Part shown: positions 14,133 to 49,247 of the stretch, one piece after another
How positions within the stretch are numbered: position 1 is the stretch's first letter
Layout: every line of letters starts with the position of its first letter
NCBI GenBank assembly: GCA_024102795.1
Contig: JAGFJK010000421.1
Coordinates: 1 to 64,000, forward strand
Reading direction: 5' to 3'
Length of the DNA: 64,000 nucleotides
Source of the DNA: Pirellulaceae bacterium
GTDB taxonomy: Bacteria; Planctomycetota; Planctomycetia; Pirellulales; Pirellulaceae
Notes under the pieces: generated by a model
Seen by the model: the letters and a program-made list of their open reading frames with translations, nothing else
Database searches by the model: none
Told to the model about the DNA's origin: nothing
Position numbers and translations under genes: made by a program

Positions 14133-16037
14133 TCAAAATGGCCAGACCCACGGGATCAGCACCAGGGAGGTCGCTGTGACCACCATCGCCAAGGGCAAAC
14201 CGCACCGCACGTAGTCCAGCGGCCGATAGCCGCCCGGCCCCATGACCATCAGATTCGATTGATAACCGATCGGGGTCATGAACGGCAGCGATGCCGACAG
14301 CGCGATGGCCATGATGAAGGGCCGCGGATTGTATCCCCCCTCCCAAGCCACTTCAATGGCGAAGGGGATCAACATGGCGGCCACTGCATTGTTGGTAATC
14401 ATCTCGGTAAACGCCATCCCCAACAGATAGATCACAATCAGCAGCAGATACGGTCGATCCCCGACTTGCGCCACCAGCGAGGTGGCAATCGCCCGGGCCG
14501 CTCCGCTTTGAGTCAAGGCGACTCCCAGCCCCAGCGCCGCCGCAATTGTCACCAGCGTCTGCAGGTCCAGCGCCTGCCGGGCATCGGCCACCCGCACGCA
14601 GCGGGTCGCGACCATCAGCACGGCCACGGCCAGAGCCGCGATCGCCGGCGACGCCCAGCCCCCCAGAGTCTGCTCCCAGCAACTGCTGGCGACCAACCAG
14701 AGGATCAGGCCCCCGGCCAAGGCGGCCGCCAGCCACAGCTTGTCGTGCCTCCGGGGTGCGGTTCCCTCCACCGGACTGACCAGGTAGAAGTCGCGGCTGT
14801 TGCGGAAGTTACTGACAAATTCGTCCCGCGTCTGCAACAGCAGCGTATCGCCGGGCTCCAGCCGGATGTTGCCGATCTTGTTGGTCAGCCGCACGCCGTT
14901 ACGATGCACGGCCACCACCGCCGCGTTGTAAAGCTGCCGGAAGTTTCCGTCCCGGACCGTGTTGCCAATCAGCGGCGAGGTGCGCGAGAGCACCACTTCG
15001 GTCAAGTGCCGCTGCTGCCGGTGCCGCGGATGAAACTCGTACGTCATGTCGGCCGCCGGAACCAGGCCCGGGATTTTTTCCAGGTCCACAATCGTGCTCA
15101 CCACACCCGTGAACACCAGGCGATCGCCGCTGTGAATCACGTCGTGAGGCGTGACCGGAGTCAGAATGTCCCCCTCCCGATCAATCTCGATCAGGAACAG
15201 GCCCGGCAGTTGCCGCAGGCCAGCCCGCTCCACCGTGCTGCCAATCAGCGGACATTCGGGCTGCACCAGCATCTCCACCAGGTACTCGCGACGCTGCTCA
15301 CCCAACTGCTCGACGATGTCCGTCCGATCCGGCAAGAGACGGTAGCCAAACACCAGCAGGAACGTCGCTCCGGCCAGCGCACAGGGCAGCCCGACCGCAC
15401 CCAGTTCGAACAGACTCATGGGTGCCACGTCGAGGGCGAACGCGGCCGCTCGCGCCGCCTGCTCGGCAGACGACTCGCCCCCCGCCGCCAGCTCTTGCGC
15501 CTCCGCCAGCCGCTGCTGCTGCGTGTCCCGCAGAATGCCGTTCACCACCAAGGTCGTGCTGGTCCCGATCAACGTGCAAACGCCGCCCAGAATCGTCAAA
15601 TAGCTGAGCGGAATCAGCAACTTGGAGGGCGAAACCTGCCGCCGGCGGCACCAGTCCACAACCACCGGCATCATCATCGCCACCAACGCCGTGTTCAACA
15701 GAAACGCCGACGACGCCACCAACACCGGGGCCAGCCGCAGCAAGGCGCCATGCGCCGAGTGAGCCGTGCCCAGCAGCCGACTGCCAACCCAGTCCAGAAC
15801 GCCAGCCGATCGCAGACCGGCCGCCACCATCAGCAGACCGGCCACGGTTAACATGGCCGGGTTGGAGAATCCGGACAATGCCTGCTGAGGCGTGACGACG
15901 CCCGTCAGAGCCAACACCACCAGCCCCGAGACAAACAGCAAATCGGTCGGCACCCCCCGGCGAACCTGCAAGGCCACGAAGATCAGCAGGGTAACTGCCA
16001 CCGCCAGCCAGGGGTGAAGAAACTGTGGAATTTCCAT
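14133..16037 (-). CDS. SLC13-family (DASS) transporter with two RCK_C domains
   Basis: A 634-residue membrane protein. N-terminal helices (WLAVAVTLLIFVALQ, LLFVSGLVVLALTGVV) lead into the SLC13 core (LSGFSNPAMLTVAGLLMVAAGL; SPSKLLIPLSYLTILGGVCTLIGTS). In the middle, about residues 200-390, two TrkA-C/RCK_C-type regulatory domains can be seen (LVEMLVQPECPLIGSTVERAGL and LTEVVLSRTSPLIGNTVRDG). The C-terminal half repeats the transporter fold (ALGLGVALTQSGAARAIA; FTEMITNNAVAAMLIPFA; PFMTPIGYQSNLMVMGPGGY). Probable Na-coupled anion uptake (dicarboxylate or sulfate); substrate unknown. ATG at 16037 is preferred; a TTG at 16055 is the alternative. Confidence 0.85.
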   Translation of the reverse strand: MEIPQFLHPWLAVAVTLLIFVALQVRRGVPTDLLFVSGLVVLALTGVVTPQQALSGFSNPAMLTVAGLLMVAAGLRSAGVLDWVGSRLLGTAHSAHGALLRLAPVLVASSAFLLNTALVAMMMPVVVDWCRRRQVSPSKLLIPLSYLTILGGVCTLIGTSTTLVVNGILRDTQQQRLAEAQELAAGGESSAEQAARAAAFALDVAPMSLFELGAVGLPCALAGATFLLVFGYRLLPDRTDIVEQLGEQRREYLVEMLVQPECPLIGSTVERAGLRQLPGLFLIEIDREGDILTPVTPHDVIHSGDRLVFTGVVSTIVDLEKIPGLVPAADMTYEFHPRHRQQRHLTEVVLSRTSPLIGNTVRDGNFRQLYNAAVVAVHRNGVRLTNKIGNIRLEPGDTLLLQTRDEFVSNFRNSRDFYLVSPVEGTAPRRHDKLWLAAALAGGLILWLVASSCWEQTLGGWASPAIAALAVAVLMVATRCVRVADARQALDLQTLVTIAAALGLGVALTQSGAARAIATSLVAQVGDRPYLLLIVIYLLGMAFTEMITNNAVAAMLIPFAIEVAWEGGYNPRPFIMAIALSASLPFMTPIGYQSNLMVMGPGGYRPLDYVRCGLPLAMVVTATSLVLIPWVWPF

Positions 16038-16431
16038 AACACCATCTTGTCTCAAGAGTTAACACAACATAACTAAGTTGATTCTTTTAGTGATATATCT
16101 GCCCCAATATAAAATCGGCACGGGGCGGCTGCAAGGGCGGAATCGAAAGCTTGCAATCCGCATCGCTGTCATCCGTGTCACGGTTCGACTGTTCGGCACG
16201 ATTTGACTGTTTTGACTGAACGATCGAATTCCCCCGCCTTGCTCATGGAGCGTAAAGTAAACGCCGATTGCCTAATGCCCCCAAAACACAGGCTCCGATA
16301 CCAAACATCGACAAAGACTAATACGTCACGCGCTGCACCTGCCTCACCAACCCCCCCCGCAGCGCGTCCCACCCGGTGGCCGGACCCCACCCAATCATCG
16401 CGATACCGTACCGTCAGGAGGATGTACTGAA
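16038..16431. other. AT-richer divergent intergenic region
   Basis: About 390 bases between divergent genes. Positions 16056-16120 are notably AT-rich compared with the rest of the window (taactaagttgattctttta, atatatctg, aatataaaat) and are the likely promoter zone for one or both genes, though no convincing -35/-10 pair was fixed. Direct repeats of tttgactg occur near 16202-16219. A strong ribosome binding site, caggaggatgt, precedes the ATG at 16432. Confidence 0.4.
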
Positions 16432-18513
16432 ATGAGTCGCCCCAGTTTCGCCCTCACCGTCTTGCTCGCGTCCCTTGCGGGATCCCTGCTCATGGCGGGA
16501 ACCGCGCGCAGTCAAATTGGCCTGTACACCTGGGAGCTCGCCGCCAGCCACGCTCGGGCGTCGGCGGCCGGCGAGTTGTACGCCTACGAGGAAGACCTGC
16601 AAGGTCACCCGGAACAGCAGCCGGACCCCGTGACCCGTCCCAGTGAAGAATTCGAAGAGTTCCAATGTCCCTACATGCAGGAGGCATACAACCAGTATTG
16701 CCCTTACGACTACAACGCGACGGATCACCACGATTCGCCGGCCCAGTACTGCCCCTATTCGGGCCGCTGCTTCGTGCATGAGTACACTTGGCAGGACTCC
16801 GACACGACCGCCGAGACTGGCGAGACTAGCGAGACTGGCGACGATGCCGTCGCGCAGGCCGGCGAAGCCAGCGACCAGGAACTGATCGCCGAATCGGCCA
16901 GCGTCGAAGCCGACGCCCAGGTGCCTTCGTCCGAGGATCTGATGTCGCATTACGACGCCGTCTACGACGAAGCGGTGTACGGCGCGTCTCCGGCGGCGGA
17001 GGACGTCGCGCAGTCCGACACGGGCAGCCAGACGGCCAATGACTACGACTACGAGAGCTACAAGTACGACCCGTACGACTACGAGTACGACTACGACTAC
17101 GAAACGGAGTACGGCTACGAGTACGACGGGTACCAGGCCGAGAGTTCCGCCGGCAACGATGCTCCGGCGGCCACCGAGCAGCCGCTGGCCGAGAATCCGG
17201 CCGAGGAAGCGACGGCCGACGTGACCACGGACGAGACGACTGTCGAGACAACGGACGAGACGGAAACGTACGACCCGTATGCCTACGACTACGAGTACGA
17301 CTACGAGTACGACTACGGCTACGGCTACGGCTACGGCTACGAGGACGACGGTTACCAGGCCGAGAATTCCGCCGGAAACGATGCTCCGGCGGCCATCGAG
17401 GAACCGCTGGCCGAGCAGCCGGCCGAGGAAGCGACGGCCGACGTGACCACGGAAGACGTGACCACGGACGAGACGACTGTCGAGACGACGGACGAGACGG
17501 AGACGTACGATCCGTATGCCTACGACTACAATTACGAGTACGACTACGGCTACGAGTACGACGGTTACCAGGCCGAGAATTCCGCTGGCAACGATGCTCC
17601 GGCGGCCACCGAGAAGCCGCTGGCCGAGAAGCCGGCCGAGGAAGGAACGGACGACGTGACCACGGAAGGCGTGATCACGGACGAGACGACTGTTGAGACA
17701 ACGGACGAGACGGAACCGTACGATCCGTATGCGTATGACTACGAGTACGACTACGAAGCCGATTACAGCTACGAAAACGATGGCACGAACGCCTCGACCG
17801 GCGATTCCGCGGCCAGCGAGCCGGCTCAGGCGGCGGAGATCGTGCCGGCGATCGAGGCGTCGTCCGGCGAAGGGACTTCGGCCGACGAGTCCGAATACCG
17901 CTACAGCGACGAGTACGAGTACAGCGACGAATATGGGTACGAGTACGAGTACGGTGACGAGTACGGCCAGGGATCGGCGGACGACCGTGATCCGTACCGC
18001 CTGGCCGATGAGCTGTTCGAACCGGCCACGACTGAGCAGCCGGCCAGCTCCGATGTGACCGGCGAAGATCGGCAAGTGGAGGCGGAGGAAGCTGAAGATG
18101 CCGGGTTGAGTCCGGCCGAGGCGTACGAGCGGTGGTACGGAGACTACGGTTACACCGACGGCTACGACGACTACGGCTACGAACCCCACAACCCGGAGGA
18201 CACCTCGTCCCCGTCGCTCGACCTGGCCGAGTTCTTCCAGGCGGCACGCCAGGCGGTGGTCGCCGTCGTGGAGCAGGTGGAACGGATCGTCTGGGACATG
18301 CAATACGAAATGGACCTGCTGCTCTGCGAGACCGGACTGGAGCGGGCCTGGTACGACGCCGTGCATGGCCAGACGGCGGTCGAGACTGAGACGGCTGAGA
18401 CGGCTGACACGGGCTCGGCTGCGACAGAGACCGCCGAGCCGCCAGTGGACCAGTGCCGACAGCCAGAGGAAGCATACCCCTGGTATGAGTGTGAGTGCTG
18501 GTACAACGACTAG
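16432..18513 (+). CDS. Secreted acidic tyrosine-rich repeat protein
   Basis: A 693-residue protein not assigned to any family I know. A Sec signal peptide (MSRPSFALTVLLASLAGSLL...ARS) starts at an ATG with a strong aggagga site. The mature protein is extremely acidic and rich in Tyr. Three to four units of roughly 70-75 residues (17040-17800) alternate a Tyr-Asp/Glu block (YDYEYDYEYDYGYGYGYGYE) with an Ala/Glu/Thr spacer (GYQAENSAGNDAPAA ... TTVETTDETE). The N-terminal 110 residues contain several cysteines (QCPYMQEAYNQYCPYDY). The C-terminus has a short amphipathic helix (LAEFFQAARQAVVAVVEQVER) and a Cys pair (WYECECWYND). Calcium or metal binding, adhesion or a matrix role is only a guess. 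A terminator follows at 18615. Confidence 0.75.
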   Translation: MSRPSFALTVLLASLAGSLLMAGTARSQIGLYTWELAASHARASAAGELYAYEEDLQGHPEQQPDPVTRPSEEFEEFQCPYMQEAYNQYCPYDYNATDHHDSPAQYCPYSGRCFVHEYTWQDSDTTAETGETSETGDDAVAQAGEASDQELIAESASVEADAQVPSSEDLMSHYDAVYDEAVYGASPAAEDVAQSDTGSQTANDYDYESYKYDPYDYEYDYDYETEYGYEYDGYQAESSAGNDAPAATEQPLAENPAEEATADVTTDETTVETTDETETYDPYAYDYEYDYEYDYGYGYGYGYEDDGYQAENSAGNDAPAAIEEPLAEQPAEEATADVTTEDVTTDETTVETTDETETYDPYAYDYNYEYDYGYEYDGYQAENSAGNDAPAATEKPLAEKPAEEGTDDVTTEGVITDETTVETTDETEPYDPYAYDYEYDYEADYSYENDGTNASTGDSAASEPAQAAEIVPAIEASSGEGTSADESEYRYSDEYEYSDEYGYEYEYGDEYGQGSADDRDPYRLADELFEPATTEQPASSDVTGEDRQVEAEEAEDAGLSPAEAYERWYGDYGYTDGYDDYGYEPHNPEDTSSPSLDLAEFFQAARQAVVAVVEQVERIVWDMQYEMDLLLCETGLERAWYDAVHGQTAVETETAETADTGSAATETAEPPVDQCRQPEEAYPWYECECWYND
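17040..17800 (+). repeat. Tandem coding repeats of about 210-225 bp in the tyrosine-rich protein
   Basis: Recurring anchors ggttaccaggccgagaattccg begin near 17128, 17353 and 17563, about 225 and 210 bases apart. Within each unit, the tacgactacgagtacgac block varies in length. A fourth, shortened block lies near 17720-17790. The units share base-level identity, so they look recently expanded. Confidence 0.75.
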
Positions 18514-18850
18514 GTCACGAACCCGCCTCGCAAGAGGTGGTTTTGACCGCGGTCGGCTCGCCGGCTGGCACGAGTTGCGATCCGGCACGAGTTGCGATCC
18601 ACGGTGTCTTCATCGGCAGCCCACTCCATCCTGGGGGTGGGCTGCCTTATTTCTTGTCCTGTCCAAGCCACCAAACCAGTTGCCACGGAACATTTTGCCG
18701 AATTCTGGTAGCATCGGGCGACAGTCGGAAATAGAATTAGGGCTGGTGCGTCATCGCGCGCCGTCAACAAGGGCAAGGCAGAGCTTTTCTCGGAACCGGA
18801 ACGGGGAGGAGCTCTTGAAGTATTCACATCTCTGCTGGGAGCCGTTGATC
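18514..18850. other. Intergenic region before the giant VWA protein
   Basis: About 340 bases. It contains a direct repeat of ggcacgagttgcgatcc near 18567-18600, the terminator at 18615, and AT-richer sequence around 18715-18760. Promoter elements were not fixed with confidence. Confidence 0.4.
18615..18655 (+). terminator. Probable rho-independent terminator of the tyrosine-rich protein gene
   Basis: Inverted repeat ggcagcccac (18615-18624) / gtgggctgcc (18637-18646), extendable by three further pairs, followed on the plus strand by the T-rich ttatttctt. It lies about 100 bases after the stop codon at 18513. Confidence 0.75.
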
Positions 18851-21800
18851 ATGTTGTTCCAACGCAGTCAGTTTTCACTGGCCGTGTCACCACTGGTGTT
18901 GCTGTGCTGCGCGGCCTGCGTCGCGGCCGAGCCACCTGCCGCTGCCCGCATGGTGACGTTTGATCATGCCACCGGAGACATTTACTTTGCCCTGAGTTTG
19001 ACTCCGACCGGCGACGTGCCTGCCGAGCGGGACAGCGACGTGGTCGTGCTGTTCGACACTTCGGCCAGTCAGATCGGCGTGTACCGCGAGGATGGCCTGG
19101 CGGTGCTGACCGAGCTGTTGAAGCACCTGGGCGGCGAGGATCGGGTCAAACTCCTGGCGGTCGATCTGACGGTCGTCGAATTGACATCCGATTTCGTGTC
19201 GCCGCGCGGCGAGCCGATGCAGGCGGCACTGGAGCGGTTGCGGCAACGGGTACCGCTGGGTTCGACCGACCTGGTGTCGGCGCTGAACCAGGCGCTGGAC
19301 AGCTTCGGTTCGACCGAGCGCCCCAAGTCGGTCGTCTACATCGGCGACGGGGTGAGCCGGGCGAACCTGTTTCAGCCGGCGGAACTGACGGCTCTGGCCG
19401 AGCGTTGCCGGGTGGAGCAGTGCGACCTGTCGAGTTTTGCCATTGGGCCGCACCGCGACCTGCACTTGTTGGCGGCGTTGGCCAATCATACGGGCGGACA
19501 ACTGCTGGTTGACGGCGAGAGCCTGGGGGCTCAGCAGGCCGGGCTAGCGCTGGCTCGAGCCAGCCGCGGCACCGTGCTCTGGCCGGCCGGCAACCAATTG
19601 AGCGAGTCGATTGTGGAATTGTTGCCTCAAACCGTGCCGCCGCTGCGCGTGGACCGCGACACGATTGTGCTGGGCCGTTTGCGGGACCGTGCGACCCAGG
19701 CGTTGTCGCTGGAAGTGCGGGCCGAGGGCCAATCGCGGACGCTCCAGTGGACGGCGTCGCCGGAGGCCAGCAGCGAGGTGCACAGCTATTTGCCGCGATT
19801 GGTCGAGACAGCTCGGCGCGACGGCGGTGCGACGCTGCCCACGGTCGGCTCGGACGGGCTGCGCGAAGCGGCTCGCGTGGTGGCGGTCAACAGCCAGCAA
19901 CTGACTCAGCTCGGCACGCAGGCACTCCGCAGCGGCGACGCGCAAGGGGCGGCCAGCGTGGCGGAAGCGGCTTTGAAGCGGGATCCGGTCAATCCGCACG
20001 CCCTGTTCTTGCGCGACGCGGCCCGCAAGGCCCGGCAGCAGGCCGGCGACGCCGAGCCGGAGTTGAAACTGAAATCCGGTGCGTTCAAACCGGCGGCCTT
20101 CCGGCGCGGCGGCAGCCACCGCTCAAGTCCCTTCCAGTTCGTGCAGTTCCAGGAGCCGTTGCCTCCGACGGCGCCAACTCCCCCGCCGGCCGGCAACTTC
20201 CAGGAAGCTCCCGATGGGCGTTTCCTGGACATGATCGAGAATGACCGCCGGGTCAAGGCCGGTCTGGTCGAAGCCGAGGTGGAGCGAGGGTTGATCGAGG
20301 CCCGGCGGAAGATGACCGAAAGTCCCGAAGGGGCCCGGCAGGATCTGAAGGTCTTGTTGGAGAGCGTCGAGCAGACGCCGGAGTTGAACGCCGACATGCG
20401 GTCGGAGCTGCGCAGCCGGCTGGAATCGGCCATTCAGGAAGCGGGACGCCAGGAGACGATCTTTGCCGCTCGCCGCGCGGAAGCCGAGGAAAACCGGATC
20501 ATCGCCTTGGAAGCCCAGCGGCTGGTGGAGGACGTGGCTCGCGACCGCCAGCGCATCAAGCAACTGATGGACCGCTTCAACGCCTTGATGAGCGAGTCGG
20601 CCTACAACCAGGCAGAAGAGATCGCCATGCAGGTGCGGGGCCTGGATCCCCAGAACGTGACCGCCGAGGCGGCCTCGTGGAACGCCCGCTTTGCGTTCAA
20701 CGTCACGGAGATGAAGCGGCTGCGGGAATTGCGGCACAAGAACTTCGCCGACGCCCTGTACACGGTCGAGCAGGCGGCTATCCCGTTCCCCGATGAACCG
20801 CCGATCGTCTACCCCGACGCCGAAGTCTGGCGCGAGTTGACGCTCCGCCGTAAGAAGTACGCTTCGGTGGATCTTTCGACCACCAGCCCGGCCGAAGAGA
20901 AGATCTTCTCCGCGCTTGACGAGCCGACCGTGCTGCAGTTCAACGACCAGCCGTTGTCGGACGTCGTGGAGTTCCTGAAAGACTACCACAAGATCAACAT
21001 CATCATCGACAACAAGGCACTGGACGACGTCGGTCTGGGCAGCGACACGCCCGTGACGCAGGACCTGAGCGGCATCTCGCTGCGTTCCGGCCTGCGGCTG
21101 CTGTTGAAGGAACTGGATTTGACTTACGTCGTCAAAGACGAAGTGCTCAAGATCACCACGCCGGAGGAAGCCGAGAGCGATCTGGTGACCAAGGTGTATC
21201 CGGTCGGCGACCTGGTGCTGCCCATCTCGGGAGCCAATGTCAATCCGTTCCAACTGGGCGGCGGCATCGGTGGCGGTGGCGGCTTCGGTGGTGGCGGCGG
21301 ATTGGGTGGCGGCGGCCTGGGTGGCGGCGGTTTCGGCGGTGGTGGCCTCGGCGGCGGTGGCGGCGGCTTCGGCGGTGGTGGCGGGATCTTCGCCGTGGAA
21401 GATGACCTGTCGCTGGGCGTCAAGAAGCAGCCCGCGGCGCCGGTCGCGGAGCAACCGGCCGCAACGGCACAACCGGCCGATCAAACGCCGATCGAACTGG
21501 AAGCGTCAGCCGGCGCCGACTCGGCCGCACGCTGGAGCAACTATTTCGCCGGACTGCAATTGGAGAACGATCAGCAGCGGCTGGCTCATGCTCGCCGTGT
21601 GCGGGAAACGGTGCGCCAACTGACGCGCTCCGCCGAACGGCTGCTGGAACGGGGCGAGCAGGACGCCAGCCAGGCGAAGTTCGCCGAATTGATCAACCTG
21701 GTGCAGGCCGCGCTGCGGCACGGGCATCCGCAACCCTGGATGTACGAGGCCCTGGCCCTGGCTCTGCACGCCACGCACGCTCCCGATGAAGAGATCGAAC

Positions 21801-22942
21801 GGGCCATGATGTCGGCCGTCGATTTCAGCGACAACGACGAAATGGTGCTGCTGGCCGCCAACCAGATGTCGCGGATGGGACTGGAGCGGCGAGCGTTGCA
21901 GTTGTACCGGCAACTGGGTGACGCCTACCCGTTCCGGCCGGAGCCGTTCATCCAAGCGTTGGACGCCGCCCAGCGGCTGAACGATCTCGAAGGCAAGAAG
22001 TGGGCCTGCGTCGGCCTGTTGCGCCAAGCCTGGCCGCGCGATCAGCGGCAGGTGGAAACGCGAGCGGTGCACGTGGCCAAGCTGACGCTGGACGAGTTGC
22101 GGGCAGCGGGGCGGACGGAAGAGGCTCAGCGGTTCGAGTCGGAGTTGGACCAGGCGCTGGTGCGCGACTGCGTGGTCACTGTCCGCTGGACCGGAGACGC
22201 GGATATCGACCTGCTGGTGGAGGAGCCCACCGGCACGCTCTGCTCCATCCGCAACGCGCGGACCACGTCGGGCGGCGTGCTGCTCGGCGATTCCTTCTCG
22301 CGGCCCGGCGGTGAAACGATCCATGGATACTCGGAGACCTACGTCTGCCCGCAAGGATTCAGCGGCGAGTACCGCCTGTTGCTCCGCCGCGTGTGGGGCA
22401 AGGTCACGGCGGGAAAAGTGACCGTGGATATCCACACCACGAACTCGGATCGGCCGCATATCCGGCAGCAGATTGACTTGAATGACAAGAACGCGGTCGT
22501 CATTTTCGACGTGAAGTCGGGCCGCCGCAGCGATCCGCTGGAAGACCACCAGGTCGCCAATATCGCTCAGGCGCAGCAGGCCGCGAGCCGGGCCATTCTG
22601 GCTCAGCAACTGAACCAGTTCGAGGGTTCGGGATCGGCCGCCGAATACTTCGCCGACAACCAGCAAGCTCGCGGCGACGGTCGGTTTGTCGATCCGCGGC
22701 TGCGCAACCGCCGTCCGCGGGCCGGGGCCGGTTTCCAGCCGGTCATCACGACCTTGCCCGAAGGCGCCAACATGACCGCCACGGCGGTTATCTCGGCCGA
22801 CCGCCGCTACGTGCGGATCACGGCGATTCCGTTCTTCTCCGGCGTCGGCGATGTCTCGACTTTCAACTTCGCCACAGGCGCCGTCGGGAACGGCCTGCCG
22901 GGCGACGACGATGACGACGACGACGACAACAACAACAACTGA
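18851..22942 (+). CDS. Giant exported VWA / secretin-like (STN) / DUF2135 protein
   Basis: A 1363-residue protein. A signal peptide (MLFQRSQFSLAVSPLVLLCC...VAA) is followed by a von Willebrand A domain at about residues 45-200 with a MIDAS-like DTSAS and YIGDGVSRA. Then come helical and TPR-like stretches and a charged coiled coil (about 460-640). At about 690-790 is a secretin N-domain-like segment (VLQFNDQPLSDVVEFLKDYHKINI ... LRLLLKELDLTYVVKDEVLKIT). A glycine tract (GGGGFGGGGGLGGGG, about 800-850) and another TPR-like part follow. The DUF2135-like domain at about 1100-1225 reads CVVTVRWTGDADIDLLVEEPTG. The end is poly-Asp then poly-Asn. The frame is open far upstream, but only the ATG at 18851 gives a signal peptide. 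Function unknown; probably a periplasmic or surface scaffold. Confidence 0.85.
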   Translation: MLFQRSQFSLAVSPLVLLCCAACVAAEPPAAARMVTFDHATGDIYFALSLTPTGDVPAERDSDVVVLFDTSASQIGVYREDGLAVLTELLKHLGGEDRVKLLAVDLTVVELTSDFVSPRGEPMQAALERLRQRVPLGSTDLVSALNQALDSFGSTERPKSVVYIGDGVSRANLFQPAELTALAERCRVEQCDLSSFAIGPHRDLHLLAALANHTGGQLLVDGESLGAQQAGLALARASRGTVLWPAGNQLSESIVELLPQTVPPLRVDRDTIVLGRLRDRATQALSLEVRAEGQSRTLQWTASPEASSEVHSYLPRLVETARRDGGATLPTVGSDGLREAARVVAVNSQQLTQLGTQALRSGDAQGAASVAEAALKRDPVNPHALFLRDAARKARQQAGDAEPELKLKSGAFKPAAFRRGGSHRSSPFQFVQFQEPLPPTAPTPPPAGNFQEAPDGRFLDMIENDRRVKAGLVEAEVERGLIEARRKMTESPEGARQDLKVLLESVEQTPELNADMRSELRSRLESAIQEAGRQETIFAARRAEAEENRIIALEAQRLVEDVARDRQRIKQLMDRFNALMSESAYNQAEEIAMQVRGLDPQNVTAEAASWNARFAFNVTEMKRLRELRHKNFADALYTVEQAAIPFPDEPPIVYPDAEVWRELTLRRKKYASVDLSTTSPAEEKIFSALDEPTVLQFNDQPLSDVVEFLKDYHKINIIIDNKALDDVGLGSDTPVTQDLSGISLRSGLRLLLKELDLTYVVKDEVLKITTPEEAESDLVTKVYPVGDLVLPISGANVNPFQLGGGIGGGGGFGGGGGLGGGGLGGGGFGGGGLGGGGGGFGGGGGIFAVEDDLSLGVKKQPAAPVAEQPAATAQPADQTPIELEASAGADSAARWSNYFAGLQLENDQQRLAHARRVRETVRQLTRSAERLLERGEQDASQAKFAELINLVQAALRHGHPQPWMYEALALALHATHAPDEEIERAMMSAVDFSDNDEMVLLAANQMSRMGLERRALQLYRQLGDAYPFRPEPFIQALDAAQRLNDLEGKKWACVGLLRQAWPRDQRQVETRAVHVAKLTLDELRAAGRTEEAQRFESELDQALVRDCVVTVRWTGDADIDLLVEEPTGTLCSIRNARTTSGGVLLGDSFSRPGGETIHGYSETYVCPQGFSGEYRLLLRRVWGKVTAGKVTVDIHTTNSDRPHIRQQIDLNDKNAVVIFDVKSGRRSDPLEDHQVANIAQAQQAASRAILAQQLNQFEGSGSAAEYFADNQQARGDGRFVDPRLRNRRPRAGAGFQPVITTLPEGANMTATAVISADRRYVRITAIPFFSGVGDVSTFNFATGAVGNGLPGDDDDDDDDNNNN

Positions 22943-27409: not shown

Positions 27410-27683
27410 CCCTTCGCTTCCATAGTAGCCTTTCGCTCCGCGAAAGTAGCTGGCGTCGCGCGCGAGCACGGCGTTGGAGTTGGCCTCTTGGGAGCGGCCA
27501 CGCTACTTTCGCGGAGCGAAAGGCGACTATGGCGCTACTTTCGCGGAGCGAAAGGCGACCATGCCGCTACTTTCGCGAAGCCAATGGCGACAATCGGCCG
27601 TCTGGCCAGCGGAGTTCAGGCGTTTATAATCAAGGGCGTTGAGTCCGCCTGGCGAGCCTGCCCACCCGAACTGTGCTTTTCTC
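27410..27683. repeat. Cluster of four dispersed palindromic elements
   Basis: Copies of gcctttcgctccgcgaaagtagc or its reverse complement occur near 27428, 27503, 27534 and 27564; the last is degenerate (ttcgcgaagccaatggc). Core arms CTTTCGC and GCGAAAG surround a TCC loop. This is the whole of the gap between lhgO and glcD. Confidence 0.75.
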
Positions 27684-42624: not shown

Positions 42625-42895
42625 ATCGTCGCCTTTCGCTCCGCGAAAGTAGCGGAATCCTCGCTACGGGCTCCGTCATAGTTGCCTTTCGCTCCGCGAA
42701 AGTAGCGGAATCCTCGCTACGGGCTCCGTCATAGTCGCCTTTCGCTCCGCGAAAGTAGCGGAATCTTCGCTGCTGACTCCGTCATAGTCGCCTTTCGCTC
42801 CGCGAAAGTAGCGGAATTCCTCGCTACGGGCTCCGTCATAGTCGCCTTTCGCTCCGCGAAAGTAGCGGAATCCTCGCTACGGGCTCCGCGATAAT
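42625..42895. repeat. Five-copy tandem array of a 53-bp unit containing the palindromic element
   Basis: Units begin gcctttcgctccgcgaaagtagcgg at 42631, 42684, 42737, 42790 and 42844: period 53, the last step 54 because of one extra t. Each unit holds the palindrome plus the linker aatcctcgctacgggctccgtcatagtc. Copies differ at only a few bases, which indicates recent amplification. There are no unique spacers, so it is not a CRISPR array. Confidence 0.9.
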
Positions 42896-48830: not shown

Positions 48831-49247
48831 CCATGTCCTCGCAAAGCACACGAAGCCGGGAAGCCCGTGAGAAGTGGTGCCGGAACGTTTATCGACCAGC
48901 TCAACCGCCTAAGGCCATCGGGGGCAAGATATTACGCCGTCGCGGGCGGCCTGTCCAGAGCGGTCGCCGGGAGGGGAACTTCGCTGATTTGGCCATTTTG
49001 AACGCAAGGTCGCCTTTCGCTCCGCGAAACTAGCGGATAGTCGCGCTTCGTAATCGCCTTTCGCTCCGCGAAAGTAGCGCGAGCAGCCGGGGCTACTCCG
49101 CCAATGGAAGCCTGTTTTTGGGCGCCAGCGCTACTTTCGCGGAGCGAAAGGCGACTATGGCGACTGTGGCCGGTTGATCTGGCTTCAACGGGAAAATTGA
49201 ATAGAATGGGTGGTTTTCCGGTCTTTGACAGCGGCGAGGGAGTTCGG
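48831..49247. repeat. Intergenic region with three palindromic elements
   Basis: About 415 bases between divergent genes. Copies of the gcctttcgctccgcgaaagtagc element lie near 49009 (variant gcgaaacta), 49052 and, inverted, 49131. The remaining sequence is presumably promoter DNA for the two divergent genes; no clear boxes were fixed. Confidence 0.6.

Follow-up and report, generated by a model that had tools for sequence, protein, structure and literature searches.

An unannotated, fast-changing family of secreted proteins in Pirellulales, some of them with acidic tyrosine-rich repeats

Introduction

A 64,000-nucleotide stretch of DNA from a Pirellulaceae bacterium (contig JAGFJK010000421.1, positions 1 to 64,000; hereafter, the window) contains an open reading frame (ORF) in whose predicted product tyrosine alternates with aspartate and glutamate over long blocks. 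Does such an ORF encode a real protein, does that protein have relatives, and which of its parts are kept among them? Our results place it in an unannotated, fast-changing new protein family, and they suggest that the eye-catching repeats are not what defines this family.

Results

The coordinates of the ORF and its surroundings are collected in Table 1. The window protein contains 14.9% Glu, 11.0% Asp and 11.5% Tyr, with only 17 Lys and Arg residues together; its net charge is -162 and its pI about 4. A preliminary description, made from the sequence alone, had noted a clear signal peptide, a strong ribosome site and cysteine clusters on both sides of the repeats, and all of these are borne out. 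The Shine-Dalgarno site is CAGGAGGA, and a strong site also lies ahead of most homologues' ORFs; the signal peptide is predicted to be cut between ARS and Q; and four cysteines precede the repeats (residues 79, 90, 107 and 113) while four follow them (632, 675, 687 and 689). The C79-P80 pair is aligned with Cys-Pro in most homologues. The C-terminus reads CECWYND, i.e., it has no terminal Arg.

Table 1. Features of the repeat-protein locus, in window coordinates
Feature	Position	Strand	Basis or remark
CitMHS/TrkA-C transporter gene, divergent neighbour	14133-16055	-	Pfam match
Shine-Dalgarno site CAGGAGGA	16415-16422	+	upstream of ATG at 16432
ORF of secreted acidic Tyr-rich protein	16432-18513	+	693 aa; homologues, dN/dS
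Signal peptide MSRPSFALTVLLASLAGSLLMAGTARS	16432-16512	+	predicted +1 residue Gln; sequence, likeness to homologues
N-terminal Cys cluster	16666-16770	+	C79, C90, C107, C113; CPY..YCPY motifs
Single-copy motif YDAVYDEAVYG, residues 174-184	16951-16983	+	regular expression, DNA pattern search
Three complete repeat units (68, 79, 71 aa)	17065-17718	+	YDPYAYDYEYDY.. block, then Ala/Glu/Thr spacer
Fourth, incomplete unit	17719-17772	+	first ~18 residues kept, Tyr-rich start
Second Tyr-Glu/Asp-rich block, distinct from the repeat unit	about 17893-17967	+	sequence
Predicted C-terminal helical hairpin, residues 598-667	18223-18432	+	AlphaFold2
C-terminal Cys cluster	18454-18498	+	C675, C687, C689
Terminator-like hairpin between repeat-protein and VWA genes	18615-18646	+	stem of 13 pairs
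Secreted VWA protein, 1363 residues, intact DTSAS MIDAS motif	18851-22942	+	downstream neighbour

The repeats are real, although the units, first described as near identical and 70 to 75 residues long, are better called closely related: the three complete copies, which begin at nt 17065, 17269 and 17506, range from 68 to 79 residues and share 88-91% of their DNA pairwise, with a dN/dS by codon of 0.31-0.39 from unit to unit. Tandem Repeats Finder (TRF) reports a 213-bp period at 17086-17756 (score 748), and the fourth copy has 59-61% identity to the complete units across its full length. In the 8.56-Mb genome, a DNA pattern that encodes Y[D/E]Y[D/E]Y[D/E]Y has six matches, all within this ORF, and its reversed control has none; hence, the repeats exceed chance. 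With AlphaFold2 and an alignment of 15 sequences, the mean pLDDT was 46.8, confidence being limited to the signal helix and the C-terminal helices (about 85-89 at residues 601-640 and 62-67 at 641-660 of the predicted hairpin), and the rest of the mature protein lying mostly below 50. The low pLDDT fits disorder, but as it comes from repeats and a shallow alignment, it is weak evidence for it.

The claim that no known family resembles this protein stands: there was no match in Pfam (E <= 0.1), NCBIfam or PDB sequences, and a literature search found no paper on such a protein. Nine other proteins encoded in the same position gave Pfam matches at chance level only. A tblastn-confirmed search of genome contigs with the whole protein returned nothing, probably because of its low complexity. 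As whole-protein searches yielded few relatives, we read the DNA upstream of the neighbouring VWA gene in about 100 genomes; this slot holds a gene for a secreted protein in many genera. About 24 secreted family members were found in Pirellulales, mostly between a divergent CitMHS gene and the VWA gene, a count that hinges on thresholds of our own choosing and includes several members from fragmented metagenome assemblies. Scored against the signal peptide of the window protein (BLOSUM62), those of 13 positional homologues reached 48-91, whereas 79 controls taken from the same loci averaged 21.8 (sd 5.7) and peaked at 41. An eleven-member profile matched in 15 of 198 genomes of the taxonomic family, always at the slot bar one weak, short match, and among 297 genomes from the order a second profile gave ten matches, eight of them from the same taxonomic family. 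Four members (L249, L257, L260 and L239) were added from titled genome records and by motif and profile scans. One of these, L257, a true new member, was recovered blind by a C-terminal profile (E = 1e-5), which also matched a ParB-like ORF (E = 5e-4), so that this profile alone is weak evidence. Profile comparison of mature sequences, without the signal peptide, by hhalign gave no link between the Tyr-rich group and the remaining slot proteins (those of genera g65, g19, g78 and others), which we therefore do not claim as homologues.

Two other readings were rejected. YD-encoding DNA in 35 of 198 relatives suggested a widespread protein, but 27 of the 30 loci read were hexamer microsatellites, non-coding or in short ORFs. 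Nor does the signal peptide serve as a sorting tag for several proteins of its own genome, where one gene only has it. As separate observations, the slot in g65 and g78 is occupied by other unannotated secreted proteins with conserved motifs of their own (LDPYGYxEYN; YWQYYxDCDRW), the loci being L090, L092, L103-L106 and L110, and L083, L093, L095, L096, L100, L101 and L132; many related genomes (L139, L142-L157 and others) carry non-coding hexamer microsatellites of the (TACGAG)n type, some beside other six-base repeats.

What the members share lies outside the repeats. A single-copy motif, YDxxYDxAVYG (regular expression [YHC]DxxYDx[AEIV][VM]; best form YDPxYDxAVYG), was present in 16 of 22 homologues and in 18 of 24 members of the full set. 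Because the expression was written after the first members had been seen, the counts on those are not independent, and the same bias affects the shuffle P values, while the matches in L239 and in genus g15 are independent. None of 26 other slot proteins has the motif; a single one of 375 background ORFs does, and it turned out to be a homologue. A DNA pattern for the motif, run over 198 genomes, matched the slot in five, gave four other, unrelated matches, and located bona fide Tyr-rich members at a different locus in two g15 genomes, where the gene adjoins a sulfatase-like gene and the VWA and CitMHS genes are absent. The C-terminal residue is Arg in 16 of 24 members and Asp in 5. The predicted +1 residue is Gln in 16 of 24, versus 17 of 95 control exported ORFs picked by simple rules. 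As read from these sequences, the family constants are the signal peptide, YDxxYDxAVYG and a C-terminal segment, predicted to be helical, with Arg as its last residue in most members. The repeat units, on which the preliminary description laid its emphasis, are the least conserved part; the ends and the single motif define the family.

The middle of the protein varies widely, with 0.7 to 12% Tyr and 10 to 30% Asp plus Glu. Net charge runs from -164 to +8, and 18 of 24 members are at -44 or lower. Most homologues have a pI of about 4; L081, L097 and L239 are close to neutral or basic and have hardly any Tyr or surplus of acidic residues. The Cys count runs from 1 to 14, which makes a fixed disulfide scheme unlikely. 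The close pair L255/L260 is identical over the first 30 residues, near-identical over the last 20, and different in the short tandem repeats of the middle; dN/dS rises from 0.05 over the first 31 codons to 0.30 in the middle and falls to 0.11 over the last 31. Elsewhere, dN/dS was 0.19-0.28 within genus g70, 0.26 for the two Tyr-rich g15 members, which have diverged little (dS 0.12), and 0.16 for L249/L257 with dS near saturation. With ratios of 0.16-0.29, the members are kept by purifying selection. With homologues found and such selection on them, the ORF is not the simple-sequence artefact that the preliminary description had named as a possible refutation, and, judged by selection, it encodes a real protein. 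In a tree of the neighbouring VWA proteins, the four Tyr-richest slot members represented (window, G019, G032 and G008) do not group, and the deep branches are unresolved; the Tyr-rich form has thus probably been gained or lost several times, the tree being silent on which.

An HtrA-type protease gene lies on the minus strand upstream, along with the CitMHS/TrkA-C transporter gene. Downstream, the VWA protein has relatives in all 60 genomes searched, and its DTSAS MIDAS motif is invariant across seven aligned proteins. It also contains a Gly-rich stretch and a C-terminal Asp/Asn run, and outside the VWA domain no Pfam model scored above cut-off. About 340 nt separate the repeat-protein and VWA genes; the terminator-like hairpin between them is a weak finding, with one seen against 1.8 expected in shuffles. 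Elsewhere in the window, a dispersed palindromic repeat, CTTTCGCGGAGCGAAAGGCGAC, is present in 14 copies at up to 2 mismatches against 0 expected (1488-1509, 1843-1896, 27425-27559, 42628-42862 and 49009-49155), partly in tandem arrays of 32 or 53 bp.

Discussion

We put at about one in two the probability that the window protein is a polyanionic protein of the surface or matrix, secreted and disordered, that owes its specificity to its ends and motif. Export, disorder and the helices are predicted. A largely disordered and strongly polyanionic protein of this kind would act beyond the inner membrane, with the cell surface or its matrix as the likeliest site. Specific contacts may be made by the constant parts, i.e., the processed N-terminus with its Cys-Pro pairs, the YDxxYDxAVYG motif as a putative binding site, and the amphipathic C-terminal helices, perhaps with disulfides. 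The Tyr-Asp/Glu repeats could then serve as a tunable, charged aromatic brush that lineages enlarge by tandem duplication. As members with almost no Tyr or acid excess exist, such a brush cannot be the family's only function. Tyrosine modification, metal binding and adhesion, proposed early as roles of the Tyr-rich protein, are guesses.

Several other explanations have to be weighed, not all of which are mutually exclusive. It is possible, though unlikely, that tyrosines beside Asp or Glu are sulfated, oxidised or cross-linked after export, yielding a heparin-like or adhesive polymer; this would be one form of the polyanionic surface or matrix protein, with which it overlaps. The alternation of Tyr with Asp/Glu recalls the extensions, prone to sulfation, that vertebrate class II/III SLRPs carry (PMC7310474), the Tyr-rich form is scattered here too, a predicted N-terminal Gln is enriched, and bacterial tyrosine sulfation has a precedent in RaxX/RaxST (PMC6637879). 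However, no modifying enzyme is tied to the locus, and low-Tyr homologues occur.

Two further explanations seem to us less probable again, and about equally so. In one, the Asp/Glu-rich disordered segments hold Ca2+ or other metals, perhaps as a cross-linked gel or a sink. The charge and pI of the window protein, and the pI of most homologues, speak for this; yet there is no defined metal-binding motif, three homologues (L081, L097 and L239) are near neutral or basic, and the tyrosines are left unexplained. In the other, the repeats are functionless: TACGAS, a hexamer prone to slippage, has multiplied in the middle of an exported protein, where this is tolerated. The non-coding (TACGAG)n microsatellites of related genomes show that a mutational source exists, and repeat content varies freely across homologues. 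Against such drift, codons are mixed inside the ORF, dN/dS between units is 0.31-0.39, the acidic Tyr-rich composition recurs on scattered branches, and all matches to the Y[D/E]Y[D/E]Y[D/E]Y pattern in the protein's own genome lie within the ORF. Least probable is that the protein serves the adjacent VWA protein as ligand or client and completes its MIDAS Mg2+ site with an acidic side chain, as in integrin I domains, since the adjacency of the two genes in many genera and the invariant DTSAS are offset by a conserved block that also includes CitMHS and often HtrA genes (so that adjacency may be passive), by the g15 gene lying away from the VWA gene, by several genomes with a VWA gene and no recognised secreted neighbour, and by the spacing and possible terminator between the genes.

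Planctomycete envelopes abound in lineage-specific proteins, and the secreted, probably polyanionic protein described here belongs to a defined family with a short conserved motif. The family offers a natural experiment, in which some versions of one exported protein have acidic Tyr-rich repeats and others lack them. Should the tyrosines prove to be modified, the question of extracellular tyrosine chemistry in bacteria would also arise.

Among known systems, Rhs/YD-repeat proteins have only the letters YD in common with the window protein; the YD units of Rhs proteins follow another consensus and form a beta shell, and RHS/YD repeat models in Pfam and NCBIfam gave no match. Nor does the window protein have a Pfam match to the YTV domain, which we take to be PF07639. 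Planctomycete YTV-domain Cys-rich cell-wall proteins (PMC8567305) are, like the window protein, secreted, planctomycete-restricted and Cys-containing, but the cysteines of our family are few and variable and its tyrosines lie in acidic repeats. Planctomycete surface proteins with the signal motif PF07595 (PMC8567305) share with the family a lineage-specific conserved signal sequence, whereas that of the window protein is confined to one gene in its genome; Pfam gave no PF07595 match at its N-terminus, a motif so short that hmmscan could miss it. The closest functional likeness that we found in the literature is with class II/III SLRPs such as fibromodulin and osteoadherin, whose sulfation-prone acidic Tyr-rich extensions have several origins and an N-terminal Gln (PMC7310474). 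Secretion, Tyr interspersed with Asp/Glu, repeated independent origin and the N-terminal Gln are shared. The window protein differs in being bacterial and much longer, in its tandem units, and in having no leucine-rich repeats (Pfam, NCBIfam, PDB sequences), and it is not known to be sulfated. It is a doubtful proposition that, in a bacterial family, long Tyr-Asp/Glu repeats have arisen time and again to form an extracellular polyanion modified after translation (by sulfation or cross-linking), anchored by constant ends and one short binding motif and convergent with sulfotyrosine-rich matrix proteins; the likeness to SLRP extensions is one of analogy, not homology.
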